Shown piece by piece: positions 844 through 28,523 of a stretch of 28,523 nt of DNA. Below the pieces are notes generated by a model that was not told the origin of the DNA, did not search any database, and worked only from the letters and a program-made list of their open reading frames with translations. The stretch spans positions 1 to 28,523 of the IMG/VR virus record IMGVR_UViG_3300032213_000586, one strand, 5' to 3'. A program made the position numbers and the translations under genes. This stretch comes from a virus. Position 1 is the first letter of the stretch, and every line of letters starts with the position of its first letter.

Positions 844-857
844 TATCGTTAACGATA
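844..857. promoter_or_regulatory. 14-bp palindrome TATCGTTAACGATA, copy 1, just before a fibre gene
   Basis: This is a perfect palindrome in the 32-bp gap between the endolysin-like gene and the first fibre gene, ending 6 nt before ATG 864. It is followed by AAAATT exactly as at copy 2 (4615). The wider AAACTATCGT context is shared with copies 2 and 3. A bound protein would cover the translation or transcription start of the fibre gene. Confidence 0.75.
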
Positions 858-4622: not shown

Positions 4623-4628
4623 ACGATA
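4615..4628. promoter_or_regulatory. 14-bp palindrome TATCGTAAACGATA, copy 2, across a fibre stop codon
   Basis: The arms are TATCGT/ACGATA with an AA centre. The TAA stop of the upstream fibre gene (4620-4622) lies in the centre of the palindrome, which ends 6 nt before ATG 4635. The flanks AAAC and AAAATTATG are the same as at copy 1, so the two fibre-gene leaders share about 20 bp. Confidence 0.75.
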
Positions 4629-7796: not shown

Positions 7797-9818
7797 ATGC
7801 CATCTGAAGGATCAGTCTTTGACGGATTCACAAGTATCATAGCGCAGGACGCAGATACCCATCCATCATATTTGCCAGAGTCTGTAGTTGCAGAATCTGT
7901 AAACAGAACATTCCGAGGTGGGATTAACCGAACAAGGCCGAGTATTCGGAATGTCAAACTTGTAGCTGGAAATGGACAGAGCGAAACTATCGTTAACGAT
8001 ATTCAGACTGGAAACTTCCAAGGGGCGCATCCGTATAGGTCGGTAACATATGATTCAGTAGATGGGCTACTCATATCGGTATCTGGAATTATTTACTTTT
8101 TGAGGATAGTAAATGGAATTGCATACGCATATATCCTCAAAAGAGACAACAAAACATTTACTGAGTGGAATGATGCAAGCCTAATGCACACATGGTTTGT
8201 GCAGGCTGAAGATAGAGTTTACATTCAGAACGGATACCAAAACCCTATTGCATGGGATGGCAAGTTAACAAGCGAAGCATATAGACTTAATCCATACGAA
8301 AAGAAGATGCCGATAGGCACTATTATGGAGTATGCTTTTGGCAGGGTATTTGTATCTGACAAGTTCAACAATATATATGCGTCTGATATTATCTATGGCA
8401 ACGGATTTACAGATACAAAGAACACAGAGAACTTTACTGAAATAGGATATTGGGCAGAAGGCGGGGCATTCACAACTCCAGCCATGATGGGTAACATCAC
8501 GGGGATGAAAGTAATGCCATACATTGGATCAAACCTTCGCGGCCAAGGCGAACTTGTAGTCCTTACTGGTAACGGAGCTTTCTCAATGGATGTAAGCATT
8601 CCAAGATCATTATGGAATACATCTAACATTCAAAGAATCTCATTGCTTGGTCGAGGATGCACAAGCCCGTATGTTACGCTTGTGAACTCTGAATTGTGGT
8701 TTAGATCACACGATGGTTGGGCATTCTACTCCAATAGCCAATCGCAATTCGCACAATACTTCTCACTTCGTAAGCTATCAAAAGAAGTAAACAAATGGGT
8801 AGAGATTGATACTGATTGGTTGAAGCAATTTGCCAGCACTATTTATTTCAACAACTATCTAATCAGCACAGTAAGTCCACAGACCAAGAAGAATGATGCT
8901 AAAGGACTTCATAGGTATCATAGGGGAATGGTTGTTCTTGATTTGGATCAATCGGCAACTCCCGCGCCAGACGCACAACTATCTTTTAGGTGGAATGGAT
9001 TGTGGACTGGCATAAGACCAACTCAACTTATTACCGCTTTGATAGCGGGTCAGAAAAGAGGGTTCGCGTTTTCGTTTGATGAAGACAACAAAAATAGGTT
9101 GTATGAGCTAACAGATAAATACGGAGATGATTACTCCGAGGTAGGAAACTCCTCTATCGAATCATTTTTTATTACTGGCAAGTATGACTTCAATAGAAGT
9201 GGAGCTACTAACAAATTCATCAGAAAAAAATTAACTGGTGGAGAAATGTGGTTGTCGGAGATCAAAAGTGAAATCATAAGTTCTGTTGATTATAGGTCTG
9301 ACTCAAACCCATGCTGGAACGAACTTAAAGTTCCAACGGCATTTGGTTGTCCCCCATGCATTCCAGTAACTACCAGATCATGCACTCCAGTAACAACTGG
9401 TTCGATTTACAAAAGGTATAAATTCAATACACCAGATATAAATGTCTGTAATGCTATTACTGAGATACCTTCAGCAGAAGGAAGTGAGTTTCAGATAAAA
9501 GTAAACCTTGTTGGTAGTGTAACTGTTGACCGAGTAAGGTTGATGGCAAACATCAAAACAAACGATGATTCGCCAGTTGGTGATTGTCCAGAAAACCAAT
9601 ACGAGTGCATACCTTCGCAGTGCTGTCCAGAAAGATATTGGGATTACAAAATATTCAAGGCTCAAGAAGTTGGATTTAACTACGATCCAGAAAGCGCACC
9701 AATCCCAATTGAAAGGCCGCAACCTCCAGTGCCGCCTGATCCCGGCCCAGAGCCTCCAGAGCCTCCAGAACCACCACCAGATTCAGATTTGAAAGTATTA
9801 TTTGCTACTTGGGTATGA
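7797..9818 (+). CDS. Large tail structural protein, possible tail nozzle (T7 gp12-like role)
   Basis: The 673-residue product begins with MPSEGSVFDGFTSIIAQDAD and SVNRTFRGGINRTRPSIRNV, a start I associate with uncharacterised beta-rich tail proteins of podoviruses in which a short leader is followed by an N-x-x-F-R-G-G-x-x-x-R-P motif. The middle is rich in aromatic/beta segments, compatible with a propeller-like fold. Near the C-terminus are several Cys pairs (CPPCIP, RSCTPV, GDCPENQYECIPSQCCPE) and a Pro-rich tail (PPVPPDPGPEPPEPPEPPP). Size and position between fibres and adaptor genes fit a nozzle or tail-tube protein, but this is inference. The Cys and Pro features are unusual for a nozzle and may be an attachment point for the Cys-rich fibres. 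Palindrome copy 3 lies inside, encoding ETIVND. Confidence 0.55.
   Translation: MPSEGSVFDGFTSIIAQDADTHPSYLPESVVAESVNRTFRGGINRTRPSIRNVKLVAGNGQSETIVNDIQTGNFQGAHPYRSVTYDSVDGLLISVSGIIYFLRIVNGIAYAYILKRDNKTFTEWNDASLMHTWFVQAEDRVYIQNGYQNPIAWDGKLTSEAYRLNPYEKKMPIGTIMEYAFGRVFVSDKFNNIYASDIIYGNGFTDTKNTENFTEIGYWAEGGAFTTPAMMGNITGMKVMPYIGSNLRGQGELVVLTGNGAFSMDVSIPRSLWNTSNIQRISLLGRGCTSPYVTLVNSELWFRSHDGWAFYSNSQSQFAQYFSLRKLSKEVNKWVEIDTDWLKQFASTIYFNNYLISTVSPQTKKNDAKGLHRYHRGMVVLDLDQSATPAPDAQLSFRWNGLWTGIRPTQLITALIAGQKRGFAFSFDEDNKNRLYELTDKYGDDYSEVGNSSIESFFITGKYDFNRSGATNKFIRKKLTGGEMWLSEIKSEIISSVDYRSDSNPCWNELKVPTAFGCPPCIPVTTRSCTPVTTGSIYKRYKFNTPDINVCNAITEIPSAEGSEFQIKVNLVGSVTVDRVRLMANIKTNDDSPVGDCPENQYECIPSQCCPERYWDYKIFKAQEVGFNYDPESAPIPIERPQPPVPPDPGPEPPEPPEPPPDSDLKVLFATWV
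7988..8001. promoter_or_regulatory. 14-bp palindrome TATCGTTAACGATA, copy 3, intragenic
   Basis: This copy has the same sequence as copy 1, with the same AAAC upstream flank, but lies inside the nozzle-like gene (codons for T-I-V-N-D). No start codon or promoter is nearby, so its role cannot be simple control of an adjacent gene start. Confidence 0.7.
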
Positions 9819-11086
9819 AACTAAATACCACATTAAAAGAAAGAATTTCCAATCTTTACCATACAACTTCAGACAACATCATTAGTGTTGGACTTGGGAG
9901 GAAAACCAAGAATGGAGTTGAAACAGGAGAGATTGGAATAGTGTTTGGTGTCTTGAAAAAGATACCAATGAATGATCTTCCGAAAGATGAAATTCTTCCA
10001 AGAAGCATTTTTGTAAACGGGCAGGAATATCAAACGGATGTAGAGGAAACTGAAATTCCTAAAATGTGCGTCTGCTATTCAAGTGGTGATCCAGAAATAG
10101 CAAGGTTACAGAATTTGGCTACAGCACCATCTCCATTAAAGGGAGGCCAAGAAATTACGATGTATCCTAATAACTTTACTCCAACAGGTAGAAGTGTTGG
10201 AACATTAGGTTTTATCGGAACCGATAATATAGATGGAAAAATTGTTGCTGTAACAAATGCACACGTTGCTTGCTATAAAAAGTTAATTGCATCACAAAGG
10301 GATTTTATCGAGGAAGAATCATTGCCATATAACACAGCAGAAAGGTATCCATTATATGATAATACTTTGAAATTTCCCAGTGGAGCTATGAAAAACAATG
10401 CTTCATTTGTATTCCCATTCCCAAGAATTAAAAGATATGTTCCTCACTATAAACAAGGAGAGGGAATAAACTATGTTGATGTAGCAATCTACACAGTCCT
10501 TGAAGAATATATTAACAATGATTCTTATCAAGTATGGCAACCAACAACAGTTACTACCTATCCATCTTCATTGCCATTTGCATCAACAGCAGAGTTAGAC
10601 AATCTACTTACAACAAATCCTTTGGTGTATAGCACTGGTAGAACAACTGGCCCTAAAGGATTTGGTTCATCGCCTTCATGCCGTTTGAGAATTACTGGCA
10701 TAGGAATAACAACTGATGTTTCAGATGGCGGTGAAGGATTTGTTGGAACATGGAGCGATACGGGCAGGATTCAATTTCAAGATAATAGTCCATCTCCAAT
10801 TCTTGGAGGCGATTCTGGTTCATCTGTTCTTGCTGATATTGGTGGGCAAAGAAAAATAATAGGATTAGCGTTTGCGGGTGGAGGAAACCTTGGCGTATTT
10901 TGTCGGATAGATAGGATCGTAGAAGCTCTAAATATCAGTGCGTTCTCTACACCAACCAATACACAGCAATCAGAACCATCATTATTTACTGGTAGTATAG
11001 CCCAATATTCCAACACAGTAAAGTTGACGAGAAACGGAAAAACATACTATCAAGTTGGCTTGACACGCAACACATATAATGGCTAA
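9815..11086 (+). CDS. Trypsin-like serine protease in the tail gene cluster
   Basis: I chose ATG 9815 because it overlaps the preceding stop (ATGA); an in-frame TTG at 9809 is the alternative. The 423-residue product has the three signatures of a chymotrypsin/trypsin-fold peptidase in order: VTNAHVA with His150, YVDVAIYTV with Asp222, and LGGDSGSSV with Ser334. The N-terminal ~110 residues (ISVGLGRKTKNG...) form an extra domain similar in layout to the N-terminus of other long trypsin-like proteins that do not have a signal peptide. A complete H/D/S set suggests activity. Placement between nozzle-like and small structural genes suggests virion maturation, fibre processing or degradation of a host surface protein. 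It could also be a cytoplasmic counter-defence protease. No transmembrane or secretion signal is seen. Confidence 0.75.
   Translation: MKLNTTLKERISNLYHTTSDNIISVGLGRKTKNGVETGEIGIVFGVLKKIPMNDLPKDEILPRSIFVNGQEYQTDVEETEIPKMCVCYSSGDPEIARLQNLATAPSPLKGGQEITMYPNNFTPTGRSVGTLGFIGTDNIDGKIVAVTNAHVACYKKLIASQRDFIEEESLPYNTAERYPLYDNTLKFPSGAMKNNASFVFPFPRIKRYVPHYKQGEGINYVDVAIYTVLEEYINNDSYQVWQPTTVTTYPSSLPFASTAELDNLLTTNPLVYSTGRTTGPKGFGSSPSCRLRITGIGITTDVSDGGEGFVGTWSDTGRIQFQDNSPSPILGGDSGSSVLADIGGQRKIIGLAFAGGGNLGVFCRIDRIVEALNISAFSTPTNTQQSEPSLFTGSIAQYSNTVKLTRNGKTYYQVGLTRNTYNG
10213..10226. promoter_or_regulatory. 14-bp palindrome TATCGGAACCGATA, copy 4, intragenic
   Basis: This perfect palindrome with a GGAACC-type centre lies inside the serine protease gene, encoding I-G-T-D, in the segment just before the catalytic-His motif. 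The reading phase is the same as in copies 3 and 11 (ATC-Gnn-nnC-GAT). Confidence 0.7.
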
Positions 11087-11612: not shown

Positions 11613-11771
11613 ATGACTACACTAAAAGGAACAGACCCTAAACTCGTTAGCGGCGGCTCACCAACTCGCGGCATGATCCGTGAAGGTATGGGCAATATGC
11701 CTAACTTGGGCAAGAAAAAGCCAAGCATCTATACGACTGCTGGCACTCCAAAACAAGGCTACCAAAAGTAA
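11613..11771 (+). CDS. Very small protein (52 aa), unknown; basic, Gly-rich
   Basis: The reading frame runs ATG 11613 to TAA 11769-11771 and fills the gap between the 163-aa protein and the adaptor-like gene. The 52-residue product is basic and rich in Gly/Thr/Pro: MTTLKGTDPKLVSGGSPTRG, then MIREGMGNMPNLGKKKPSIY and TTAGTPKQGYQK. It has no hydrophobic segment. The leader (AAACAAATAAAATATATG) is A-rich like those of other genes here. Small basic Gly-rich proteins of this kind occur beside adaptor genes in many podoviruses and may be minor virion or assembly proteins, but I cannot name a function. Palindrome copy 5 starts one base after its stop codon. Confidence 0.65.
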   Translation: MTTLKGTDPKLVSGGSPTRGMIREGMGNMPNLGKKKPSIYTTAGTPKQGYQK

Positions 11772-11772
11772 T

Positions 11773-11786
11773 TATCGTTTACGATA
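11773..11786. promoter_or_regulatory. 14-bp palindrome TATCGTTTACGATA, copy 5, abutting a start codon
   Basis: The palindrome fills the whole 15-bp gap between two genes and its last base is immediately followed by ATG 11787 (CGATAATGG). The same CGATAATGG junction recurs at copy 7. A bound protein would occlude the start codon in DNA, or the palindrome could hairpin in mRNA (TATCG/CGATA arms, 4-nt loop). Confidence 0.75.
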
Positions 11787-15858: not shown

Positions 15859-18800
15859 CAGCAGAAGAATTTCTAAACCAATCGGATTCTCCTACGGGAA
15901 AACAATTAAGTGCAGCAGCTTTTCTTGATGAAGAACCAGTAGGCACTTCTATTGGTGATACGCTTCAAACAGCAGCAGCAGAATTAGAGGCTGGAGTTGG
16001 CAGGGCTGGTAGTGCATTTGCGAAATCAGCAGTTGGATCGGTAAGAATGTTTACTGATTTATTTGGCGCAAATAATAAGGTGTCTAAAGAGATTGCTGGA
16101 GTAGAAGATTACATTGACCAGTTTACTACGGCTCAAGCCAAGCAAGACAAAGAAGAAATTTCTCGCTTGTTCCAAGAAGCAGAAGGAAAAGGTTTGGGCA
16201 ATAAAGTTATGGCTGGTCTTAAAGCTGTAGCTGTATCTCCAGAGACAACGGTAGCCGAGACTGCTGGATTTATGTTGCCATCATTGGCTACTGGTGTATT
16301 GGCTACAATAGCTGCCGCTCCAACAACAGTTGCGATTGGAGCGCAAGCAATAGTTGGAGGTTATCAGGCAGCAGGGATGTTAAAAGGAGATATTTACAAA
16401 TCTGTTTTAGAGTATTCCCGCGAGCAGGGATTGGATGAGGTAGAAGCTGATCGCGCTGCAACGGAAGCTCAAGCATATGGAGGTAAAAATTCTGATTTAA
16501 TTCTACTGAACGCCGGACTTGGAGCATTGGCTGCCTCTACTGGAGCAGAAAAGATTGCTGCTCGAATACTTACTGGTAGGGGGAAAGAGGTCACAAAGAA
16601 ATCCATCAGCGAGTTCTTGAAACAAGGAGCTATGGCTGGAGGTGTAGAGGCTTTGACAGAAGGAACTCAAGAAGCAGCAGAACAAATCTCACAGAACATC
16701 GCCCTACAAAGAGAGGGTAAGGATGTTCCTACCTTCCAGAATGTCCCGCAAGTAGCTACGATGGGCGCGGTGGCAGGGGGTGTGATTGGTGGTGGGTTGA
16801 AGGGAATTGAGTTTCTTTCAGCGGAAGAGAAAGCTGAACAAGACATCAATCGTTCAGCAGATAGAGAGGCCAGATCACTTTCCGCTACTGACTCTACAAC
16901 CAAAAAGGTTATCAACGATCTTAACCAATCCGAGAATGCGATTGATTCTTTAAGGCAAGAATTAGACACATTGGAGCCTACTGATCCAAAAGCGCAGCAA
17001 TTGCGGATGCGAATCTCCGAGGAGCAAAAGAAAGCTACAGGACTAAAGCAATCCCTTGGAGAAGAATTTTTATCGGAACCGATAACCGAAGCAGAGAAGC
17101 AACAGCTTGAATTGGCGAAAGCTATTACCACTCCCGCGAAGCCGAGACCACTGCCGACTGATGTATTGCCTACCGAGACACCGGGCGCAACCTATGGCAG
17201 AGAAGAACAGGTCTATGATGTATTCGGAGGCATAACGCGCAAGCCAGTATCTATACCTAAACCTGCTGAATTGCCTGCCGCGCCTACGATTGAAGAACAA
17301 ACCGCAGAGGGAACCTATGGAGGACAGACTGGAGTGTTTGATGTATTTGCTGGAGCAAGAAGGAAGCCAGTAATCACCGAAGAACCGCCTGTATCTATGG
17401 TAGGCAAGGAAGTGATACCGGGCGTTACGCCTACGCCAGTGGTTTCTACACAACCTAAAGCAACCAAAGAAGCCATAGCATCCGCAACGAATGTAGCTAA
17501 TCAAATTGAGGAAGAGAATAAGGTTCTTGAACAACAGAAAAAGTTTAGCCCACCAACCGCGCCAACCTTGCAGGATGCGCGCAGTCTTCCAGATGCAATT
17601 GCAAAGAAAGGCAAAACGCTTTCAATTTCTGGAGGCAAGCAAGAAAGGAATATCCTTGATCCAAAGGAATCAAAGAAAAGATTTGATGAGATAGGATACG
17701 AGCGGCAAGCGTTAGAACTTCCAGAGGACATGAATGATCGTGTGTCTGGTAGATATGGGAATGCTATCGCCAACATTAAATCCTTGTATTCACTTCAATG
17801 GTTAGGCGCACATTTTCATGGTGGGGTGGCTGTAAATCCAGAAGTAAAAGGAACGCAAAGAGGGCGAATCGTAGCACACGAACTTGGTCACGCATCGCAC
17901 TCGCTTCTTGGTGATAAGATCAACAAAGATCAAAATGTTCTTAATGAACTTCAAGCGATAGAAGAACTATTGTATCCCGGCCTGCGAGCCAAGGTATCAG
18001 CGGCAAGTAATCCAGATGCAAGTTTCTTCAACTATCTTCTTTCACCAAATGAATTGATAGCCGAGTTCAATGTTGAGCGAGTTTCAAATCCAGAACGCGC
18101 AGCGCAAGTAGCTCCAGCATTATCTGCATTACTTGAATCTGCCGAGAAGATGAAAGGTCTTGTTGCTGATAGAAAAACATTCCCAACATTCATGGGGGTT
18201 ATTTCAGAAAGCAAAGAAAGACTTAAAGTAAAAGACCTTGAATCAAGAAAGATTAAAGAAACAACTGGAGATGTATTAAGAGGTAAAAGAAATCAATGGT
18301 CTGATCGGGCGCGAGTAATAAAAAGTTTCGCGGCGAAAAATGATTTAACTTGGGCTAAACTTGCCATGGGACTTTTAAAAAATACAGACAATGCTCCCAA
18401 ATCGTTCGCCAAACGAACTGCCGAATTAACTGAAAATCAAGAGTTGATTGATTATGTAGAAGAACTTTATCCAGTAGAACCCGCACCAGTCACCGAGCAA
18501 GCTGCACCAGCAGAAGCTCCCGCGCCAGAGGTTGCGAAACCAACTGGCGGTGTTGATTATTACAAGCAACTTGGTGAACAAGATGCGTTAGACACTAATC
18601 GCAAAAAGAAACGTTCAGTTCCGCAGAACTTTAAGTTGGCATATGAAGTAGGGTGGTCTGACGCAAGAAAAAAACTTAGAGCAGAACCCACCCCCGCAGT
18701 ATCGGAAACGATAATGGAGCCAGCAGAACCCACTCCAAAAGTGGAGCAAGAGATTGAGGTAGGTGATGAAGCATCTGTTAATCTCGCTGGAAGAAATGAA

Positions 18801-21800
18801 ACTGTAACCATTGCTCGTATAGAAGACATCAATGGTGTCCCAACCGCATACTTTGATTATTTCGGATACAAATCTCGACCATTAGCTGAAATGCAATTGG
18901 TTAAAAAATCAAAACAAAACATAGCAAAAGCTGAAAAAAAAGCAAAAGAGGCAAAGGCATCTCAAATAGAAATTACTCCACCTAAACCAGAAGACTTTTT
19001 TTCAAATGAAGAAATAACAAGTCTTGCATCCGGCAAGGCTCCCGATGCATGGAAGTCTGATGCTGCTACTCGTGATGATTTTTTTCTAACAGATACAAAA
19101 GGCAAACGATGGAGCTTTGAACCGCAAAGAACAAATGGCGAGATTACATCAATACTGATGCGCTCATCTAATAGGGTAGATAGCGTCACAATTGAAGTTA
19201 AGAAACAAAAGGCAGCAACAAAACCAAAACTCGGAGAAAAAGGCGACGTTCTAATCCCTACCAAAGAAGACTTCATCCAAGCAGGACAGAATATATACGA
19301 GGCTGGCATGGAGTTTGGTGCTTGGGCTAAACAGATGATCCAGAGATTCGGTGATGCTGTCAGAGAGTTCCTTGGGGAAGTATGGCAAGCAGTGAGTGGT
19401 GCGCCAGCGAAGTTGAATGAACTGATGGGCTATCTTCCTAAGAAGGGTGAAGCTGGTGCATTATCCATCGGAAAGACTGGTAAGTTAGATCGCTATACAG
19501 ACAGAGGAACGATTGTAAAACTTGCCATTACGCAAGAGAAGGATACTCCAAAAGGTATATTATCGGAAACGATAAAGATCATTAAGCAAAGAGTATTTGA
19601 TGGTGACTCTACTCCGTCCGAGTCTGCTACTAAGAAAGCATGGGGATTGATTGAGCGTCTTCAAGTAACTAATCAAGACTCCGCAGGCAACGCTGAAGCT
19701 ATCAACCAACTTACCCGCGAAACAATGCAGGAGGTGGGTGTTGCAGAAGATGCGACTGAGGCAGAACGCAACGCATTTGAGACTATCAAACAAACTGTTG
19801 GAGCGACTAAGCTCAACAACGAGTTGTTCAAGTATGCCATCAAGTTAGCAGGACAAGGTGATAATTCCATGTTGAATTATCTTCTCAACAATGAACTGAA
19901 TGTAGTCGGGACAAGCGTTAAATCCAGAGGAGATGTAGGAAGAACTCTCGGCGCGCTTGAAGGACTTAAAAGTTATATCGTCCAAGCCAACGAAGCGGAG
20001 CAGGCAGGATTCATTCAACTGGCAGCACAGAGGTTCTTCAACACAACAACACCAACTGAAGATCAGATTGCCAAAATTAAAACAATTCTTACTGCCGTAA
20101 ACGAAACAAAGGTAAACGAGGAAGAAGCGATCCTTGATGAACTCACTCAAGTTGGAGAGAAGGTAGGGACTGAGCTTGTAGAGAACATCAATACTCAAAT
20201 TGATAAAGCATCCAAACCAGAGGTCAAAGACCCAATGGTTGCCGCTATCACTGCGATGCTGAGACTTGGTGGAACCTTTGTTTATAGGAAGACCAAGAAC
20301 AAAATCAAAGCGGCGGTAGAGAAAACAATTAAAGGCGGCATCACAAACTACAGAAACAAACTTGTAGAAGGCGCGGCTAATGGGTTGGAGACTGGATTCT
20401 GGAAAACGCTTTCATCTCAAGAAAACAAACCCGGCCCACTTGGAGAACTTGACTCTGCACAGAACCGAGAGCTTGGCAACATAGTCAAAAGCACATTGGT
20501 TTCGATGAAGCTACAAGGAACGCCACCTAATACCAAGATGTCTATCTACGAACAAGTAGCCAGCATCCTTGGTGAGAAGCCACTTTCTAAAGATAAGACT
20601 GAACTTGCTGACAAGAAGATTAGGGAAGAGATTAATCGTAAGCGCGAAAGCGAACTCAATGAAACTGAGGATCAAGAAGCTCAAGATGCGATCAATCTCA
20701 AATACGATCAGATTGAGAAGGCTTGGGATATGGCAATGTCGCGGCAGTTGGATATGCCCGTGGGTGATGCGATGCTTCGCCGCCTTATCTTTAATGAACT
20801 CAAGGAAGCTAAGACGAGCATCAATGAGCTTGCAACTTTGATGAATGAAGACCCTACGATTGGAACAAGTAGGCAGGATAGAATCGTGTCGGCTATCATA
20901 AACAAGATTGCTGGTGTTACATTTGAAGGGCAGAACCCCGCTGATTATACGGCATTCAAGGAGTATCTGAGCAATGAATTAGAATCATTGGTTCAAGGGG
21001 AGCAAACTAAGAAGAAGGTTGTTAAGACCAAAGAGAAGGTCAAAGCCAACCAAGCGTTGAGAGAACTTGATAAGCTGGCAAAGATTCAATCTGATACGCC
21101 TAACTTTCCTACCTCCGAGAAGATTGCCAATCCAGTTAGGGATGCAGTAAGGAATGCCCTTAAACTGAATTTGAATGTAATGTTTGACCCGAAAGCGGCA
21201 GCAGACATCATGCGGAATTGGAAGAAGGAATTTGCCGCTGAACTCCAGCAACTCGGAGTTGATGAGGCTACCGCACTGACGCTGACAGATGTTGTTGGCA
21301 GGCAGATTGAGTTGGATTCTGTTAGCAGGAATCTTGATTCAATCGACAATGCTATCAACAAAGGTGCGCTTACCGGAGTAATCAACGCTATCAAGAATAC
21401 TCCATTAGCTGACCAACAGAAGCCTAACTGGAGATACGAAGTCATGCGTGACTACCTCCGTAACGCTGGACTATCTGCAACGCAGGCAGAACGGATAGCA
21501 AAGCTGATGGACATCTCGCTTCAGAAGAGATTTGCCAAGGCTCAAGAAGAAGCGGCGGCATCTATTGCAAAGAAACTCTTGAAAGGTATCAAGCCAGAAT
21601 CAAACCGAGGATTCACAGCATTAATCCAAGCAATACGCGCACAAGTTTTAAACCCCGGCAGCAATGTGGCTATGGAATTTGGCCGAGCAATGGGATGGAA
21701 GGGATTCACAGCAGAGCAACTAAAGGCTCTGAATGAATTTGATTCTAAGATCAACGATGAAACCATTACCGAGGCAGAGCGAGCAGTAGCACTTGAGGGT

Positions 21801-23840
21801 ATCAAGAAGATCATTGATAAAGTTGCTTTACCTACAAGGGTTAGAGATTCCCTTTCCGCTTTTTACATTGGACAAGCACTTGGAAGATTGCCAGTAGCTA
21901 CAGTTCAAGTTGTTGATCCTGCAATATTCGCTGGTTGGGATGCGGCGGTTGCTGGGTTAAAGAATATAACGAGTCCAGAATTAACCATGCAAATATGGGG
22001 GAATTATATTTCATCTCTAATAAACGCTGGAAGAGAATTTGCTTTTTCATTCAAGAACGATGTGACCAGAAGCGGTAGGTTGGTTGATTACCTTGAGACT
22101 CAAGATAGAAAACTAAAACGACTTCGTAACGATGCTGATAACTTGTGGAAGAATGGTCAGTATAAACAAGCTATTAAGAAATACTTATTTAGTTATCCAG
22201 AAATAACTTCAAGAGTATTGAAGGCACTTGATGACGCTTCATTCTCTCTTCTCCAGCAAAATGCGCTGAATCAATACATGATTTCAGCAATGAACATGGC
22301 AAAGATTCCAAAGAAAGATCAGCTTGGAGCCTTGAGGATGATTGCTCAAGCAAGGCAGATGGACATTGCTAACATGATGGCAGACGGGATTAGCAAGAAT
22401 GATGCTATCATATACGCTAACGAGCGGATGAAGGCTGAAATTTCAAGAGTGATGTCTGGATTGAACCTTAACTCTACTGAGATCATAGATGCAGCTATCA
22501 ACGATTCCTTGGCTCGTATTGGTAAAAATAGATACAAAGAACAATTTAGTGGAGAAACTGAAATAAAAGATGAAGGCACATTATCATATCCATTCCTTAA
22601 AATGTATGAGGGAACATCACGATTAGTATCTGATGTAAAAGGTGTAAGAGGAGAAATAATGCGTATCTTCCAAAGAATGTTATTTGGGTTCCCGTTGATT
22701 GTAGCAAAAGTTGGAAATGTTGCTTATGGTTATACTCCGCTTACTCTTTATCGTCATATCTTAAAAGGTAGTTATCCCCTTACATACGGCACAGCAATTC
22801 AAAGAAGAAAGCGTTTGGCAGAGCAATTAACTGGATTTGCTGTCCTCGCTCCACTTTTATTCTTACGGTCAATGTCATTTGATGATGATGAAGATAAAAA
22901 GCCAATCAGCATTGTCTTCACAGGATTCGGCCCAGTTAGATCGAAAGACCCAGAGGCATATAACCAATGGCATAAAAAGCACAATCCGGGTTCGCTTGAA
23001 CTTTTTATCGGCGGCAAGCGGTATGCCCTTGATTCAAAGTCAGCAGGGCCATTGAAGCCAATGATTGAAATCTTGGGTGCTATTGATGATTGGCAGATCA
23101 GAAAGTTCCAAGACGGAGCGAAGATGACCAAGGAAGAAATGAAGAAAGCTCAAGAGAATGCTGGACTGATTGGAACTATTGGAGAGATAGCTGGATCACT
23201 TTTCTTGACTGCTGCAAGGCGTGGCCCTGCTACTGGATTGATGCAAGGGTTGATTGATTTCCGCAGATACCCAGATGATCCTCTCGCAGCCATAGCGCAA
23301 GAAGCGTCATTCTCTTTTACTCCATTGATTCCAGTGGTTGGATTTGGTGCTACCAAAAATATCTCTGACGCATTATCGGAACCGATAGACACCAGAACTA
23401 AAGAGGGCGCGATTCTGAATAACCTTCCAATCATCGGGCCTATGTTTGGCAAGCCAGCTATCAATGCGTTTGGTCAACCGATAGGTGATGTCCAGATTTC
23501 CGAAAAGATTAAGAAGGTTACTGGCATCCCAATTACTCTCGTTCCGGTTAGTTCTGGTGATGACCAGAAGCTCGCCAAGATCACTCTCAAGAATGCGAAT
23601 GGGCCAGAGCCACTACAAAGAAATTGGTTTGATAAGAAGTTTGAAACTCCATTGTCAGATCAAGAATGGAGGACAGTGAACGAGGATTACGCGAGATCAA
23701 ATCGTAAGTTGGTTTTAGAAAATTATGAAGAGTTGAATGGGTTCGATCCCGAAGTTTACAAGACTGCAATATCGAATGTTGGAACCCAATCAAAGTATCT
23801 CGCGCTCGACAATCTTGACAAGTCTCGCAAAAAGCCTTGA
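15855..23840 (+). CDS. Giant virion/ejection protein (2,661 aa) with zinc-peptidase motif (gp16-like role)
   Basis: This one frame fills 28% of the window. The N-terminal region has a membrane-prone stretch from about residue 139 (FMLPSLATGVLATIAAA...). A zincin motif, AHELGHASH, places His675-E676 and His679 as candidate zinc/catalytic residues, preceded by VNPEVKGTQRGRIV. A low-complexity Pro/Glu/Ala linker follows (about 880-960), then a small SH3-like barrel (about 970-1015: GDEASVNLAGRNETVTIARI). The central ~1,000 residues are long charged helices. A hydrophobic segment is near 2325-2340 (LTGFAVLAPLLFLRSM), with a conserved-looking C-terminal domain to the end. Size, position and mosaicism match the largest ejection proteins and 'polyvalent' phage proteins injected with DNA. 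The peptidase may act on host proteins or in maturation. T7 gp16 instead carries a transglycosylase, which I do not see. Four palindrome copies lie inside. Confidence 0.7.
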   Translation: MTAEEFLNQSDSPTGKQLSAAAFLDEEPVGTSIGDTLQTAAAELEAGVGRAGSAFAKSAVGSVRMFTDLFGANNKVSKEIAGVEDYIDQFTTAQAKQDKEEISRLFQEAEGKGLGNKVMAGLKAVAVSPETTVAETAGFMLPSLATGVLATIAAAPTTVAIGAQAIVGGYQAAGMLKGDIYKSVLEYSREQGLDEVEADRAATEAQAYGGKNSDLILLNAGLGALAASTGAEKIAARILTGRGKEVTKKSISEFLKQGAMAGGVEALTEGTQEAAEQISQNIALQREGKDVPTFQNVPQVATMGAVAGGVIGGGLKGIEFLSAEEKAEQDINRSADREARSLSATDSTTKKVINDLNQSENAIDSLRQELDTLEPTDPKAQQLRMRISEEQKKATGLKQSLGEEFLSEPITEAEKQQLELAKAITTPAKPRPLPTDVLPTETPGATYGREEQVYDVFGGITRKPVSIPKPAELPAAPTIEEQTAEGTYGGQTGVFDVFAGARRKPVITEEPPVSMVGKEVIPGVTPTPVVSTQPKATKEAIASATNVANQIEEENKVLEQQKKFSPPTAPTLQDARSLPDAIAKKGKTLSISGGKQERNILDPKESKKRFDEIGYERQALELPEDMNDRVSGRYGNAIANIKSLYSLQWLGAHFHGGVAVNPEVKGTQRGRIVAHELGHASHSLLGDKINKDQNVLNELQAIEELLYPGLRAKVSAASNPDASFFNYLLSPNELIAEFNVERVSNPERAAQVAPALSALLESAEKMKGLVADRKTFPTFMGVISESKERLKVKDLESRKIKETTGDVLRGKRNQWSDRARVIKSFAAKNDLTWAKLAMGLLKNTDNAPKSFAKRTAELTENQELIDYVEELYPVEPAPVTEQAAPAEAPAPEVAKPTGGVDYYKQLGEQDALDTNRKKKRSVPQNFKLAYEVGWSDARKKLRAEPTPAVSETIMEPAEPTPKVEQEIEVGDEASVNLAGRNETVTIARIEDINGVPTAYFDYFGYKSRPLAEMQLVKKSKQNIAKAEKKAKEAKASQIEITPPKPEDFFSNEEITSLASGKAPDAWKSDAATRDDFFLTDTKGKRWSFEPQRTNGEITSILMRSSNRVDSVTIEVKKQKAATKPKLGEKGDVLIPTKEDFIQAGQNIYEAGMEFGAWAKQMIQRFGDAVREFLGEVWQAVSGAPAKLNELMGYLPKKGEAGALSIGKTGKLDRYTDRGTIVKLAITQEKDTPKGILSETIKIIKQRVFDGDSTPSESATKKAWGLIERLQVTNQDSAGNAEAINQLTRETMQEVGVAEDATEAERNAFETIKQTVGATKLNNELFKYAIKLAGQGDNSMLNYLLNNELNVVGTSVKSRGDVGRTLGALEGLKSYIVQANEAEQAGFIQLAAQRFFNTTTPTEDQIAKIKTILTAVNETKVNEEEAILDELTQVGEKVGTELVENINTQIDKASKPEVKDPMVAAITAMLRLGGTFVYRKTKNKIKAAVEKTIKGGITNYRNKLVEGAANGLETGFWKTLSSQENKPGPLGELDSAQNRELGNIVKSTLVSMKLQGTPPNTKMSIYEQVASILGEKPLSKDKTELADKKIREEINRKRESELNETEDQEAQDAINLKYDQIEKAWDMAMSRQLDMPVGDAMLRRLIFNELKEAKTSINELATLMNEDPTIGTSRQDRIVSAIINKIAGVTFEGQNPADYTAFKEYLSNELESLVQGEQTKKKVVKTKEKVKANQALRELDKLAKIQSDTPNFPTSEKIANPVRDAVRNALKLNLNVMFDPKAAADIMRNWKKEFAAELQQLGVDEATALTLTDVVGRQIELDSVSRNLDSIDNAINKGALTGVINAIKNTPLADQQKPNWRYEVMRDYLRNAGLSATQAERIAKLMDISLQKRFAKAQEEAAASIAKKLLKGIKPESNRGFTALIQAIRAQVLNPGSNVAMEFGRAMGWKGFTAEQLKALNEFDSKINDETITEAERAVALEGIKKIIDKVALPTRVRDSLSAFYIGQALGRLPVATVQVVDPAIFAGWDAAVAGLKNITSPELTMQIWGNYISSLINAGREFAFSFKNDVTRSGRLVDYLETQDRKLKRLRNDADNLWKNGQYKQAIKKYLFSYPEITSRVLKALDDASFSLLQQNALNQYMISAMNMAKIPKKDQLGALRMIAQARQMDIANMMADGISKNDAIIYANERMKAEISRVMSGLNLNSTEIIDAAINDSLARIGKNRYKEQFSGETEIKDEGTLSYPFLKMYEGTSRLVSDVKGVRGEIMRIFQRMLFGFPLIVAKVGNVAYGYTPLTLYRHILKGSYPLTYGTAIQRRKRLAEQLTGFAVLAPLLFLRSMSFDDDEDKKPISIVFTGFGPVRSKDPEAYNQWHKKHNPGSLELFIGGKRYALDSKSAGPLKPMIEILGAIDDWQIRKFQDGAKMTKEEMKKAQENAGLIGTIGEIAGSLFLTAARRGPATGLMQGLIDFRRYPDDPLAAIAQEASFSFTPLIPVVGFGATKNISDALSEPIDTRTKEGAILNNLPIIGPMFGKPAINAFGQPIGDVQISEKIKKVTGIPITLVPVSSGDDQKLAKITLKNANGPEPLQRNWFDKKFETPLSDQEWRTVNEDYARSNRKLVLENYEELNGFDPEVYKTAISNVGTQSKYLALDNLDKSRKKP
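17071..17084. promoter_or_regulatory. 14-bp palindrome TATCGGAACCGATA, copy 6, inside the giant gene
   Basis: This perfect palindrome encodes L-S-E-P-I in the giant frame. It has the same core sequence as copies 4, 9 and 10. Confidence 0.7.
18700..18713. promoter_or_regulatory. 14-bp palindrome TATCGGAAACGATA, copy 7, before an internal in-frame ATG
   Basis: It encodes V-S-E-T-I in a Pro/Glu-rich linker of the giant protein and is immediately followed by an in-frame ATG (18714, Met954), reproducing the CGATAATGG junction of copy 5. An internal start here would give a ~1,708-residue C-terminal product; there is no Shine-Dalgarno to support it. Confidence 0.65.
19561..19574. promoter_or_regulatory. 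14-bp palindrome TATCGGAAACGATA, copy 8, inside the giant gene
   Basis: Identical to copy 7 and only 861 bp away, in the same reading phase (L-S-E-T-I). Confidence 0.65.
23374..23387. promoter_or_regulatory. 14-bp palindrome TATCGGAACCGATA, copy 9, near the 3' end of the giant gene
   Basis: Encodes L-S-E-P-I in the giant frame, like copy 6. It lies 573 bp upstream of the intergenic copy 10, which has the same 14 bases. Confidence 0.65.
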
Positions 23841-23870: not shown

Positions 23871-23943
23871 GCAGCATTTGGGATGTTGTATTCATGTTAT
23901 TCATCAGGTTGACGCACCTCGGAGAAATTCGGGGTGCGTTTTC
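23871..23943 (+). ncRNA. Putative small RNA (~73 nt) between a promoter and a terminator
   Basis: The span runs from the start predicted by the upstream promoter to the T-run of the terminator. It holds a 5' hairpin CAGCAT-TTGGG-ATGTTG (23872-23888; six pairs including one G-U) and the 3' terminator hairpin, joined by an AU-rich linker. No convincing ORF explains the segment: a TTG-initiated 45-codon frame (23837-23974) crosses it and its terminator. Alternative reading: an ordinary 3' end of the late transcript with a chance promoter match. Confidence 0.4.
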
Positions 23944-23944
23944 T
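23912..23944 (+). terminator. Rho-independent terminator after the late region
   Basis: The hairpin ACGCACCTCG / CGGGGTGCGT pairs over 10 bp (23912-23921 with 23930-23939, one G-U), with an 8-nt loop GAGAAATT and a short T-tract (TTTTCT). The G-U pair supports + strand RNA. It would end the structural operon transcript, and any small RNA started at ~23871, before the next promoter. Confidence 0.75.
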
Positions 23945-23946
23945 GT

Positions 23947-23960
23947 TATCGGAACCGATA
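23947..23960. promoter_or_regulatory. 14-bp palindrome TATCGGAACCGATA, copy 10, upstream of the early-operon promoter
   Basis: Located just after the terminator and 31 bp upstream of TTGACA at 23992. It is followed by AAAAATATT and, further down, AAAAAGTATT, similar to the AAAAAGTATT between copy 12 and the promoter at 28177. This suggests a shared operator-promoter module. Confidence 0.75.
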
Positions 23961-23991
23961 AAAATATTTTCTAAAAAGTATTAAAAAAATG

Positions 23992-24019
23992 TTGACACGA
24001 TAATCGTAGTCTGTAGATT
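23992..24019 (+). promoter_or_regulatory. Promoter of the early/recombination operon
   Basis: TTGACA (23992-23997), a 16-bp spacer and TAGATT (24014-24019) in an AT-rich intergenic region after a terminator, just upstream of the operon. The spacer contains an 11-bp palindrome ACGATAATCGT (23997-24007) built from the same CGATA/ATCG half-sites as the large palindrome family but in the reversed arrangement. The predicted start is near 24026, leaving a ~33-nt leader before ATG 24059. Confidence 0.65.
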
Positions 24020-24271: not shown

Positions 24272-24411
24272 GAGACGAAGACGATTACGATCTTTCTTCC
24301 GAAATAGAGGAAGGCAGACGCGAATCATACATTCATAAATGTGCGATGCGCGACATGGATCAAGGCATCCGACCTACCTATTGGGACGAACCAAATGACG
24401 ATAACGAATAA
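24268..24411 (+). CDS. Very small acidic protein (47 aa), unknown
   Basis: The gene starts with an ATGA overlap on the previous stop (24268-24271) and ends 17 bp inside the nuclease gene, typical of translationally coupled phage genes. The 47-residue product is strongly acidic: MRDEDDYDLSSEIEEGRRES, YIHKCAMRDMDQGIRPTYWD, EPNDDNE. It has one Cys and no hydrophobic segment. Acidic phage miniproteins can mimic DNA or inhibit host enzymes, but nothing here demonstrates that. The overlaps on both ends are the main evidence that it is real. Confidence 0.5.
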   Translation: MRDEDDYDLSSEIEEGRRESYIHKCAMRDMDQGIRPTYWDEPNDDNE

Positions 24412-25261
24412 CTACGATCTACCAGCTCCCATGTATCGGGCGTTGGCACACGATGGTTATATGGCGGGTCAAAGGAAAGCTGACATATCAGTAACTACCT
24501 TGATCGGCCCACCGAAGATTAACCAACTCAAGAAACGCTACTCTGACCAGATCGTAGAAGACGCATCTGACAGGGTGTGGGCATTACTCGGACAGTCAGT
24601 GCATAAAGTTCTTGAGTTGGCAGGCGGCGAGGATGAGATGACTGAGAAGCGTCTATACAAAGAAATCAATGGATGGACGCTGACTGGTCAGACTGACTTG
24701 TATGAAGTTGAGAAGGGAATCCTTTCTGACTTCAAAGTAACTTCAGTCTTCTCCTTTCTTCTTGGACAAAAATCTGAATGGGTAGCCCAACTCAACTGCA
24801 ACGCCCTACTTTGGAGAGAGTATGGCTACTCCCCAAAGAAACTTCAGATCGTCGCCATCCTTCGTGACTGGCAGGCAAGCAAAGCAGAGTTTGACAAAGA
24901 GTATCCTCAGTGTGCAGTTCACATTGTTGACATACCGCTTTGGGATAACGAAGAGTGCATAGCCTACGCTACGGAGAGGGTTAAACTTCACCAAGCGGCG
25001 GCAGCAATGCCAGACGATACCATCCCTGCTTGTGATCCAAAAGAGCGGTGGGCCAAGTCAGATACATTTGCCATAAAAAAAGATGGTAACAAACGAGCAG
25101 CAAAAGTGTGCGAGACATTGGAGGAAGCACAAAACTTACTTCCTACCTATGGCGCGAAACACTCAATCGAAACACGGGCGGGAGGCAACATCCGCTGCGA
25201 GCGTTATTGCTCAGTAGCTCCCTTCTGCCACTACTACAAAACAACCTATACAAATGAATAG
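24395..25261 (+). CDS. PD-(D/E)XK nuclease, RecB/Cas4-like, with C-terminal Cys cluster
   Basis: I chose ATG 24395 (288 aa); an upstream in-frame ATG at 24341 would overlap most of the preceding small gene. The core reads in order: His70 in LLGQSVHKVLE; Asp101 in LTGQTDLYEV; Asp112-Phe-Lys114 in GILSDFKVTS; and Gln132 in EWVAQLNCNALL. This H...D...DxK...Q order is the RecB/Cas4/lambda-exonuclease-like PD-(D/E)XK signature. The C-terminus has Cys268, Cys272 and Cys278 (IRCERYCSVAPFC), with earlier Cys213/Cys239 as possible fourth ligand, suggesting a Cas4/AddB-type 4Fe-4S cluster. It sits two genes upstream of an ssDNA-binding protein. Likely role: end-processing exonuclease in phage replication or recombination. 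It is not next to any CRISPR array. Confidence 0.78.
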   Translation: MTITNNYDLPAPMYRALAHDGYMAGQRKADISVTTLIGPPKINQLKKRYSDQIVEDASDRVWALLGQSVHKVLELAGGEDEMTEKRLYKEINGWTLTGQTDLYEVEKGILSDFKVTSVFSFLLGQKSEWVAQLNCNALLWREYGYSPKKLQIVAILRDWQASKAEFDKEYPQCAVHIVDIPLWDNEECIAYATERVKLHQAAAAMPDDTIPACDPKERWAKSDTFAIKKDGNKRAAKVCETLEEAQNLLPTYGAKHSIETRAGGNIRCERYCSVAPFCHYYKTTYTNE

Positions 25262-25497: not shown

Positions 25498-26313
25498 ATG
25501 AGTAACCAATTAGACGGAATCGAACAGAAAGACATCATCAAACGGGTGACTGGTAAGGTCACTAAATTGTGGGAAGCCAAGACATTCAACGGCCCGAAGG
25601 GTGAGTTTGTCATCCAAGGTGGAGACATTGAGATCGACGGGCAGACCTACGGACTCAAGTTCTTCAACAATACCCAAGAGCAAAGCATCAAAGGCAATGT
25701 AGTTACCCTGTCATCAGTCCGTGGAAAGCATGGTCTGACTGGAGTATCCTTGGAGCATGAGTCTTACGAAGGCAAGAACGGCAAGGTAGATCGTGACATC
25801 ATCAAAGTCACAGCTACTGGTAAGGTTGAGTTTGACCGACCAAGTGAAGAGCCTGCCCGTGTCACCTCAACAGCCAAGGTTATCGTAACCGATAATCCAG
25901 AGAAGGCATTGGATGAGATCGTTGAGATGCACCAATACATCGACTCCTTGGTTCGCATGGCATACCTTGGAAAGATTACTGACGAAGAAACCCTTCGCTC
26001 GTATGTCTCCTCGGTCTTCATCGAAGCTAACCGCAAAGGCATCCACTATTCTTCAAAGGTCGAAGCACCTAAGAAGGAAGAACTCAAAGCTGAAGAACTT
26101 GATCCTGCTGACTGGGCATCTGCTATCGTTCCAAGTGGTTCACACAAGGGCGAGAAACTTGCAGAGATTGGCAAGAAAGACCTCACCAAACTCTATCAAT
26201 TCTACTTGGAGAAAGGGTTCACAACTCCATTCTCTAAGTGTGTAGAGCAAGCCGCGATAGACTTTAACCTCGATGCTCCTGTTGAAGAGGACGCAGACGA
26301 CATTCCATATTGA
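25498..26313 (+). CDS. OB-fold ssDNA-binding protein with SSB-like acidic C-terminal tail
   Basis: The 271-residue product opens with an OB-fold-like beta region (about 10-115): IIKRVTGKVTKLWEAKTFNG, GEFVIQGGDIEIDGQTYGLK, KGNVVTLSSVRGKHGLTG. A helical linker follows (about 130-195). A small domain then contains WASAIVPSGSHKGEKLAEIG and LTKLYQFYLEKGFTTPF, reminiscent of the G-x-H-K-G-x-x-L-x-x-I module found beside phage recombination and exonuclease genes. The protein ends EEDADDIPY. Bacterial SSBs end in an acidic D-D-x-I-P-F tip that recruits replication and repair partners, so the terminus is a good match. Proposed role: phage ssDNA-binding/annealing-associated protein acting with the Cas4-like nuclease. 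Palindrome copy 11 lies inside (V-I-V-T-D-N). Confidence 0.7.
   Translation: MSNQLDGIEQKDIIKRVTGKVTKLWEAKTFNGPKGEFVIQGGDIEIDGQTYGLKFFNNTQEQSIKGNVVTLSSVRGKHGLTGVSLEHESYEGKNGKVDRDIIKVTATGKVEFDRPSEEPARVTSTAKVIVTDNPEKALDEIVEMHQYIDSLVRMAYLGKITDEETLRSYVSSVFIEANRKGIHYSSKVEAPKKEELKAEELDPADWASAIVPSGSHKGEKLAEIGKKDLTKLYQFYLEKGFTTPFSKCVEQAAIDFNLDAPVEEDADDIPY
25881..25894. promoter_or_regulatory. 14-bp palindrome TATCGTAACCGATA, copy 11, inside the SSB-like gene
   Basis: Near-perfect palindrome (the sixth base T faces C), the same 14 bases as copy 12. It lies in the linker region of the gene, with no nearby start codon. Confidence 0.65.
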
Positions 26314-26355: not shown

Positions 26356-27336
26356 ATGAAAAAGAAACCAGAATTAGAATTGTTCAGCCCAACTCAAGAG
26401 GGAATCATTGTTCCTCTTTCCAAATACCTAACCCAAATGGCCGAGTATGTTAAGACAGAATGGCCGGGTATCAACATCACAGAAACCCACATCAAGAAGG
26501 CATGGGCAAAGGTAATCAAGAACGAATACCTTGAAGATGATGCACCAGATGAGATGCTGGAGATGTTTGAGAAGATGTCCGCAGACTTGGACATGGCCGA
26601 GGAAATGGCAGAAGAACGCTTGGCTAATCCAGTAGTGGAAGCAGAAGAAGTTGAAGTGGAACTGACCGAAGATGAACCCAAGAACGAATCCCTCGCCCTT
26701 GTGGAGAGTGTAAAGGATGGTCTGGAACTCAGTTCATTCACTCAGAAGTTCGACATCGGATCGGGAATGACTCAGTGCGTTCCCAAAGGTAAGGTGGAGA
26801 TGAAAGACTGGGTAGCAGCATTCGCTTTCGGTTTGACTCTGGAGTCCGGCGCACAATGGATCATCGGTGATTCGGTGGTAGCCTTGGAGAACGCAGGGCA
26901 TGAGGATGTAGTCAACCAACTCTGCTCCAACTTCAAGAAGTCCTATCCAACTGTCTCCGGTTACGCCCGTGCTTGCCGCGCCTTCCCTGCCGACAAGCGT
27001 GATGCTACGCTACCATTCACAGTCTATCGTGAAATCGGCAACGCAAACTTCGGAGATGAAAGCACCAAGAAACAGAATGAACTTCTTGAAGCAGCGAAGA
27101 ACGAGAAGCTATCCTCGACTGAAGTAAGGAACCGAGTGCGTAGTGAGCAAGGTAAGGACGATAAACCATCCGGTCATCGCTTCCTCCTCCTCAATGTCGG
27201 CAACTTCTCCAACTCAGAAGTTCTCCGCTCAATGCCCGAAGAAGTCCAAGAACACCAACTCTTGATCGACCTTGGAGACAAGTCATGGTTTGATCCAGCA
27301 GAAGGTGAATGGTTGAAATTCGGAAAAGAACAATGA
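26356..27336 (+). CDS. Putative DNA-binding protein with ParB/KorB-like helical domain
   Basis: The 326-residue product has a short N-terminal region with a winged-helix-like look (about 13-55: IVPLSKYLTQMAEYVKTEWP...THIKKAWAKVI), a very acidic linker (about 56-112), and a helical domain (about 150-260). The latter contains FAFGLTLESGAQWIIGDSVV, LCSNFKKSYPTVSGYARACR, AFPADKRDATLPFTVYREIG and a final EVRNRVRSEQG. The sequence W-x-x-G-D...Y-x-T-x-x-x-Y-A-x-x-x-R-x-F-P-x-x-x-R...L-x-F-x-x-x-x-E-I resembles HTH domains of ParB/KorB-like and actinobacterial phage-type DNA-binding proteins. This makes it the best visible candidate in the window to bind DNA sequence-specifically, possibly the scattered palindromes; that link is untested. 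It is coupled to the next gene by ATGA. Confidence 0.5.
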   Translation: MKKKPELELFSPTQEGIIVPLSKYLTQMAEYVKTEWPGINITETHIKKAWAKVIKNEYLEDDAPDEMLEMFEKMSADLDMAEEMAEERLANPVVEAEEVEVELTEDEPKNESLALVESVKDGLELSSFTQKFDIGSGMTQCVPKGKVEMKDWVAAFAFGLTLESGAQWIIGDSVVALENAGHEDVVNQLCSNFKKSYPTVSGYARACRAFPADKRDATLPFTVYREIGNANFGDESTKKQNELLEAAKNEKLSSTEVRNRVRSEQGKDDKPSGHRFLLLNVGNFSNSEVLRSMPEEVQEHQLLIDLGDKSWFDPAEGEWLKFGKEQ

Positions 27337-28154: not shown

Positions 28155-28168
28155 TATCGTAACCGATA
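28155..28168. promoter_or_regulatory. 14-bp palindrome TATCGTAACCGATA, copy 12, upstream of the small-RNA promoter
   Basis: It begins two bases after the Acb2-like stop codon and ends 8 bp before TTGACA at 28177, with AAAAGTAT between. A protein bound here would touch or abut RNA polymerase at the -35 box. Confidence 0.75.
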
Positions 28169-28176
28169 AAAAGTAT

Positions 28177-28204
28177 TTGACATTGGTTTGAGTAGTGTTA
28201 GTCT
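28177..28204 (+). promoter_or_regulatory. Promoter of the kissing-loop small RNA
   Basis: TTGACA (28177-28182), 16-bp spacer and TAGTCT (28199-28204). The -35 hexamer is perfect and the architecture matches the two promoter-like sites at 23837 and 23992. The predicted start is near 28211. Confidence 0.55.
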
Positions 28205-28210
28205 GCCTGT

Positions 28211-28303
28211 ATCCAATACAAGTGGACGAGACTTGTAGAACCAGTTTCAAATTGAAAAATGGGTCTGTTAGAATCTCGTCCATTCTGACAGGCCCAATTT
28301 TTT
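28211..28303 (+). ncRNA. Putative ~93-nt small RNA with complementary hairpin loops (kissing-loop RNA)
   Basis: The element lies between a promoter and a terminator and has no plausible ORF. Hairpin 1 is ACAAGT-GGACGAG-ACTTGT (28218-28236): 6 bp, 7-nt loop. Hairpin 2 is TTTCA-AAT-TGAAA (28245-28257). Hairpin 3 (28261-28295) is a 14-bp stem with two G-U pairs and a 7-nt loop CTCGTCC (28275-28281), followed by T6. The whole loop of hairpin 1 is the exact reverse complement of the whole loop of hairpin 3, so a 7-bp (5 G-C) kissing interaction can form within one molecule or between molecules. Possible roles: antisense or sponge RNA, packaging RNA analogous to the interlocking loops of phi29 pRNA, or a structural decoy. 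No family is recognised. Confidence 0.65.
28261..28303 (+). terminator. Rho-independent terminator of the small RNA
   Basis: GGGTCTGTTAGAAT (28261-28274) pairs with ATTCTGACAGGCCC (28282-28295) over 14 bp with no mismatch, using two G-U wobbles that would be A-C mismatches on the other strand. AA and TTTTTT (28298-28303) follow. It is therefore a + strand terminator. Confidence 0.8.
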
Positions 28304-28523
28304 GCCACCATTGGATCGTGTAGCCAGCGGGGATGCGTGTAGGACGCACCGAGAGTAGTCTGCTAAATACTGGTGAAGGAGTGGAGTTGGAATGGCTGCT
28401 GAGACTGTTATCCTGCCAACTTAATGCTGTCCTTCGGGACGACTTGCAATTAGTCAACGAGATTAGACTAGCCTAGGTAAAGGAAGACCGCTGGGCGTGG
28501 ATTGTTAAGCGAAAGGTGACAAC
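28304..28523 (+). ncRNA. Structured noncoding right edge, probable RNA continuing past the window
   Basis: The last 220 nt contain no credible gene but many inverted repeats: an enclosing long-range helix CCAGCGG (28324-28330) with CCGCTGG (28487-28493); a hairpin GG-A-TGCGT / ACGCA-CC around loop GTAGG (28331-28350); AGTTGG (28385-28390) with CCAACT (28416-28421); a UUCG-tetraloop hairpin GTCC-TTCG-GGAC (28429-28440); and TAGTC (28451-28455) with GACTA (28466-28470). A GAAA tetraloop-like segment is near the end. This is more structure than expected by chance and fits a multi-helix RNA. I tried to match tmRNA, RNase P, SRP RNA, tRNA and group I/II introns by eye and none fits well. The right end is cut by the window. 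Confidence 0.45.

Follow-up and report, generated by a model that had tools for sequence, protein, structure and literature searches.

The palindrome TATCGNNNNCGATA recurs throughout the genomes of a group of related phages, and comparison of these sequences indicates that its copies are, on balance, operators of a dimeric phage protein, most likely the product of the gene at 26356-27336, that would act genome-wide as well as at promoters. The window, which is the whole 28,523-bp IMG/VR virus record analysed here, contains 12 perfect copies, all with a spacer of 4, and a scan of the window for perfect copies with any other spacer length from 0 to 8 found none. By direct reading, 5 of the 12 copies lie between genes and 7 are intragenic (Table 1). 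Relatives were gathered using the 326-aa ORF at 26356-27336, which gave 50 viral loci and more distant ones, down to ~51% identity. The commonest 5+4+5 palindrome in nearly all of them is the same motif, the exceptions being short or truncated loci (L051, L120). Each of the 27 related contigs of 35-60 kb carries 11 to 32 copies, with 0 for a reversed control pattern, and the range across all phages, including the distant phage G028, is 9 to 32 per genome.

Six relatives together contain 140 perfect copies against ~0.3 expected (~400-fold over chance), while one-mismatch copies are only about four-fold over chance and two-mismatch copies are near the chance level. The small number of one-mismatch forms favours sequence-specific recognition. 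The extended consensus is ATTATCG-KWWM-CGATAAT. In a matrix built from 360 sites (16 long relatives and the window), TTATCG-K-W-W-M-CGATAA is preceded by A, not C, and followed by T, not G, and K/M are found at positions 6/9 in 357 of the 360 sites. The motif does not vary among phages whose G+C content ranges from 43 to 54%; in relatives at the richer end the two bases at its centre drift (TATCGTCGCCGATA) but the arms and K/M are kept.

Table 1. Palindrome copies and associated features. Positions are those of the window unless another genome is named.
Feature	Position	Strand	Comment
Copy 1	844..857	.	intercistronic, just 5' of ATG at 864
Copy 2	4615..4628	.	intercistronic, just 5' of ATG at 4635
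Copy 3	7988..8001	.	intragenic, tail-protein gene 7797-9818, codon 64
Copy 4	10213..10226	.	intragenic
Copy 5	11773..11786	.	spans whole stop-to-ATG gap, ATG at 11787
Copy 6	17071..17084	.	within 2661-aa ORF
Copy 7	18700..18713	.	within 2661-aa ORF
Copy 8	19561..19574	.	within 2661-aa ORF
Copy 9	23374..23387	.	within 2661-aa ORF
Terminator-like hairpin	23911..23944	+	between upstream gene and copy 10; conserved in relatives
Copy 10, TATCGGAACCGATA	23947..23960	.	31 bp upstream of early-operon -35
A+T-rich, UP-element-like stretch	23961..23991	+	between palindrome and -35; UP likeness by eye
Early-operon promoter TTGACA-N16-TAGATT	23992..24019	+	predicted; -35 TTGACA 23992-23997, -10 TAGATT 24014-24019
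Exonuclease-like gene (phrog_2139)	24398..25261	+	early operon; E 4e-53
SSB-like protein gene	25498..26313	+	early operon; assigned by eye, without family match; holds copy 11
Copy 11	25881..25894	.	within SSB-like gene, codon 128
326-aa protein gene, LmbU-like Noc/ParB-fold core	26356..27336	+	early operon; proposed palindrome-binding protein; core at residues 115-326
Copy 12, TATCGTAACCGATA	28155..28168	.	8 bp upstream of ncRNA-promoter -35
ncRNA promoter TTGACA-N16-TAGTCT	28177..28204	+	predicted; -35 TTGACA 28177-28182, -10 TAGTCT 28199-28204
5' part of conserved structured ncRNA	28211..28523	+	runs off window; ~500 nt in relatives
XRE/Cro-type regulator gene, 112 aa	G005 3776-4114		HTH_3-type

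Intragenic copies recur at fixed positions. The palindrome is found at codon 64 of the tail-protein gene in 16 of 17 genomes, near the C-terminus of the terminase in 16 of 16, at the same place in the DnaB-type helicase in 15 of 16, and at the same position in the SSB-like protein in 15 of 17. These sites are read in two different frames, and wobble bases within the arms are invariant whereas only 3-40% of neighbouring wobble positions are fully conserved; the sites compared were chosen by the motif, yet nearly all orthologues have it. As far as such comparisons show, selection on the palindromes is acting at the level of the DNA. A role in RNA, in which a hairpin UUAUCG-NNNN-CGAUAA would serve mRNA processing or translation control, is very improbable. 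Intercistronic copies do lie a few nt 5' of start codons, many of them between a stop and a start, and the spacer met most often in the locus set is GAAA. However, the spacers also include TTTC, TTAC and TTAA, copies upstream of a promoter fall outside the transcript of that promoter, and the hairpin reading was rejected because the arms are invariant, with no compensatory or G-U variants.

Across the 360 sites, ~60% are intragenic and many of the others are in short intercistronic gaps; the intergenic share is ~40% (145/360) in genomes with ~11% intergenic DNA, a split that comes from a rough gene caller which over-called the window. Many intergenic copies fill the 13-25 nt gap from a stop to the next start. 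Copy 5 abuts the ATG (11773-11787) in a gap without room for a Shine-Dalgarno sequence; the orthologous gap carries the palindrome in most genomes and is arranged alike. The 2661-aa ORF (15855-23840), possibly an internal virion protein, is highly variable among relatives and its clusters split, and each relative has several palindromes in it despite this variability.

The early-operon promoter and the promoter of the small RNA each have a copy upstream. The earlier note had placed copies 12 and 10 before TTGACA-N16-TAGnnT, with 8 bp to the -35 box at one site and 31 bp at the other, and had claimed that CGATAAAAA and AAAAGTATT are present in both upstream contexts. The coordinates bear out the TAGTCT and TAGATT promoters and both gaps, and the two sequences are indeed found at both sites. 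Across relatives, the palindrome at the early promoter is intact in 44 of 45 and has one mismatch in L049; AAAAGTATT is not generally conserved. The spacer bases of this palindrome and the A+T-rich stretch that follows vary among relatives, and its distance to the early -35 ranges from 18 to 31 bp. At this promoter, AAAAGTATT goes with the clades that have the 31-bp gap; other clades have gaps of 18-23 bp and lack it. A 9-bp palindrome, CGATWATCG, occupies part of the spacer of the early promoter (23998-24006). It is present in most close relatives and absent from the clade of L033, and could be the operator of another regulator.

At copy 12 the arrangement is more variable. The -35 and -10 of the ncRNA promoter are conserved in relatives, with TAGATT as the -10 in several, and the promoter spacer varies. 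The ncRNA itself, which is complete in L004 (~11720-12240), is conserved in at least 13 relatives, several predicted pairs being changed on both sides; an Rfam search gave no match. Its 3' end is a terminator facing a convergent helicase gene, and some relatives have a terminator in place of the ncRNA. The promoter and RNA are kept without the palindrome in 4 relatives (L033, L036, L037, L040), and in 10 others (L006, L013, L014, L019, L020, L024, L030, L031, L032, L043) the palindrome comes after a stop codon and neither promoter nor RNA follows. Palindrome and ncRNA promoter are thus separable at this site, and the palindrome does not form a fixed module with the small RNA. The term module is only partly right, because the parts at copy 12 are separable and because most copies are not at promoters.

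These two were described as the only intergenic promoters with clear operons or RNAs behind them, which is correct within the 28.5-kb fragment but not in longer genomes, where the palindrome is found at further promoters, notably that of the replication operon. This operon (O-like and DnaB-like genes, outside the window) has the promoter TTGACATCGAACACAACCTATAGTAGTTT, which the palindrome precedes by 9-11 or 30 bp. In L151, L152, L193, L129 and others, a ~20-bp hairpin-like insertion (e.g. ACCATTTTCCTGCCGTCAGGAAAAAGGT) between the palindrome and the replication -35 shifts the gap from 10 to 30 bp. Further promoter-like sequences have the palindrome 12-13, 18-24 or 48 bp upstream, and for conserved TTGAC-N(15-18)-TANNNT promoters the distances upstream of the -35 are stereotyped (8-11, 18-24 and 29-31 bp). 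Of the 360 sites, 35 have a promoter-like sequence no more than 45 bp away, among them 21 of the 145 intergenic ones, versus 114 of 4927 random intergenic positions (2.3%). The conserved site at the early promoter, the stereotyped distances and the enrichment over random positions together make a role of the palindrome in transcription likely. The tie to transcription drawn in the earlier note is partly supported. Promoters are a minority location, and since most sites are away from them, acting on promoters cannot account for everything the sites do. Helical phasing was considered as proof of activation and rejected: the Rayleigh R is 0.46 (p ~0.03) with distance classes chosen post hoc, and the phasing is weak, equally strong at periods of 9-12.5 and not specific to 10.5 bp.

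The candidate binder is the 326-aa product of the early-operon gene at 26356-27336. The central domain of the protein is its most conserved part. A Pfam search of the protein gave no match. The NCBIfam model LmbU_fam_TF (NF038070) matched all 7 homologues tested from this phage group with E-values of 1e-6 to 7e-11, at scores of 28.6-42.4 bits that are below the curated cut-off of 125 bits. The AlphaFold (AF2) model of the core has a pLDDT of 85, and Foldseek against the PDB matched it to Noc (7nfu, prob 1.00) and to the Noc DBD in complex with its DNA site (6y93, prob 0.98, target TM 0.66); ParB (prob 0.91-0.96) and SopB were also matched, with E-values that are modest, 0.025 at best. The modelled core thus has a predicted ParB/Noc-type helical HTH DNA-binding fold. 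Profile proof of ParB homology was sought by hhalign against three ParB sequences and was not significant.

The main argument for preferring this protein as the binder is that its core tracks the motif into G028. This 48.8-kb phage, found by a pattern scan for the motif, is distant (terminase ~25% identical) but has 9 sites, with the motif as its commonest palindrome, and it encodes a 226-aa homologue of the core (E 1.7e-21) that keeps the helix motif SYxTVSxxxR; the LmbU model did not match this homologue. Contigs in which the motif occurs just once (e.g. L324, L345, L367) were counted as chance matches on that ground and for lack of a binder homologue, and a homologue of the XRE regulator is absent from them too. 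We infer that the 26356-27336 protein would bind the motif, dimerise and change transcription. The pairing in G028 does not close the argument, because G028 encodes a different small HTH protein as well.

The other phage-encoded candidate is the small XRE/Cro-type regulator, which would bind the sites as in a classical phage repressor-operator pair. XRE repressors use 12-17 bp palindromes, and the gene for this HTH_3-type protein is conserved in all 16 long genomes. However, it has a palindrome of its own: TTGACYTGTCAA lies over its -35 as the only copy in the genome in 16 of 16 genomes (at L056:3745-3756, upstream of the XRE gene at 3776-4114, and likewise in 15 others), and is likely, from this placement, to be the autoregulatory operator of the gene. 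The TATCG palindrome is upstream of the XRE gene in only 1 of the 16 genomes; as the XRE promoter is without it in the other 15, the palindrome does not belong to promoters in general. G028 has 9 TATCG sites but no XRE homologue. The XRE regulator was rejected as the binder on the strength of its own single operator and its absence from G028, and we regard this explanation as improbable. Recognition by a host DNA-binding protein, with the phages exploiting host regulation or nucleoid organisation, is likewise unlikely. The invariance of the motif across the 43-54% G+C range could reflect a fixed host protein, but the motif is accompanied, in G028 as well, by a phage HTH protein that has a suitable fold and a conserved helix, and the very different genome of that phage makes a common host uncertain.

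A further question is whether the sites are mainly architectural, serving compaction, positioning or self-marking by a Noc-like protein, with the promoter-proximal copies incidental. This is rather doubtful, though several observations fit it: the Noc/ParB-type fold of the candidate binder, the preponderance of sites within genes or in intercistronic gaps, their fixed positions in structural and replication genes, and a spacing whose evenness exceeds random expectation (P<0.05) in 13 of the 16 genomes, where the genomes are related and the tests not independent. The intergenic enrichment and the repeated placement upstream of major promoters point to transcription too, and the partition-type domains are missing. 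ParB_N CTPase domains (PF02195) over the cut-off and ParA-type ATPases (PF13614) were each found in 0 of 17 genomes, with positive controls, and ParABS partition was rejected on this basis. Integrase families PF00589 and PF00239 were also absent from the 17 long records, which may be incomplete. The lack of ParA, ParB_N and integrase argues against both partition and a classical lysogeny repressor, with the same reservation about the records.

Under the preferred reading, in which the palindromes are operators, TATCGKNNMCGATA would be the target of a dimer of the 26356-27336 protein, with the half-site (A)TTATCGK and two central bases nearly free. The binder would be made early, from a promoter with its own site, giving autoregulation, and, placed 8-31 bp ahead of the -35, it could modulate the promoters of the early and replication operons and, in some phages, that of the ncRNA. 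The effect might be repression, as for KorB, or activation, as for LmbU. The sites within genes and between cistrons point to a further role across the whole genome: at an occupancy of about one site per 1.5-3.5 kb, the protein could form transcription roadblocks like the L5 stoperators or organise phage DNA like Noc.

The system is best read as one laid out like the KorB-OB, phiC31 or L5 sites, without a CTPase domain, ParA or integrase. The Noc NBS and ParB parS sites are 14-16 bp palindromes dispersed over the genome. Noc and ParB give the best structural matches of the core, and the palindromes here are similarly dispersed, but the phage protein has no CTPase domain, no ParA partner and no significant sequence similarity to them, and here there are sites at promoters. 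KorB of RK2, a member of the ParB family, represses from repeated OB operators on one genome, which are located either 4-10 bp or 45 to >1000 bp ahead of the promoters it controls; KorB is a sliding clamp that depends on CTP, and it acts together with KorA (PMC11790492). The repeated sites, some just upstream of promoters (8-31 bp here) and others distal, resemble this system. The differences are another motif, no ParB_N over the cut-off in 17 genomes, no integrase detected and sites that are mostly intragenic.

LmbU, known from actinomycetes, binds a palindrome, has an HTH that was modelled on Spo0J, represses its own gene and has also been described as an activator, with a CGCCGGCG site reported at the lmbA and lmbW promoters (PMC6510168). 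The likeness lies in profile matches that, though weak, are found consistently over the core of the 26356-27336 homologues; the phage proteins differ in scoring below the family cut-off and in having extra N- and C-terminal regions. In phage phiC31 and mycobacteriophage L5, 18-30 sites for the repressor are scattered through the genome (PMC4557955; PMC5712189), comparable with the 11-32 dispersed candidate sites per record here. The L5 stoperators act as roadblocks (PMC4557955); they are asymmetric, follow the direction of transcription and lie mostly between genes, whereas the present sites are palindromic and ~60% intragenic. In contrast to those temperate phages, no integrase was found in the 17 genomes, whose records may be incomplete.

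Searches with the tail protein, portal-like protein, terminase and binder candidate found no relatives in INPHARED, none were found among 50,697 phage records, and two scans of GTDB genomes for a host also found no relative. Dispersed operators are a known kind of system. The motif, its placement within genes, the group of phages and the candidate binder had no precedent in the collections searched, and a non-exhaustive search of the open-access literature found no paper describing them.

A tentative and less probable extension is that the evenly spaced sites and a Noc-like protein without a CTPase domain form a genome-wide nucleoprotein structure, coupling DNA organisation with the timing of the early and replication promoters in a phage without detected integrase or partition genes. 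If true, this would be a phage counterpart of the bacterial chromosome-organising systems. A few temperate phages are known to have dispersed operator systems. The one proposed here is conserved across a large uncultured group, is largely intragenic under apparent DNA-level selection, and has one testable candidate binder, with a fold like that of bacterial chromosome organisers. It would make genome-wide protein occupancy testable in a phage without known lysogeny genes.
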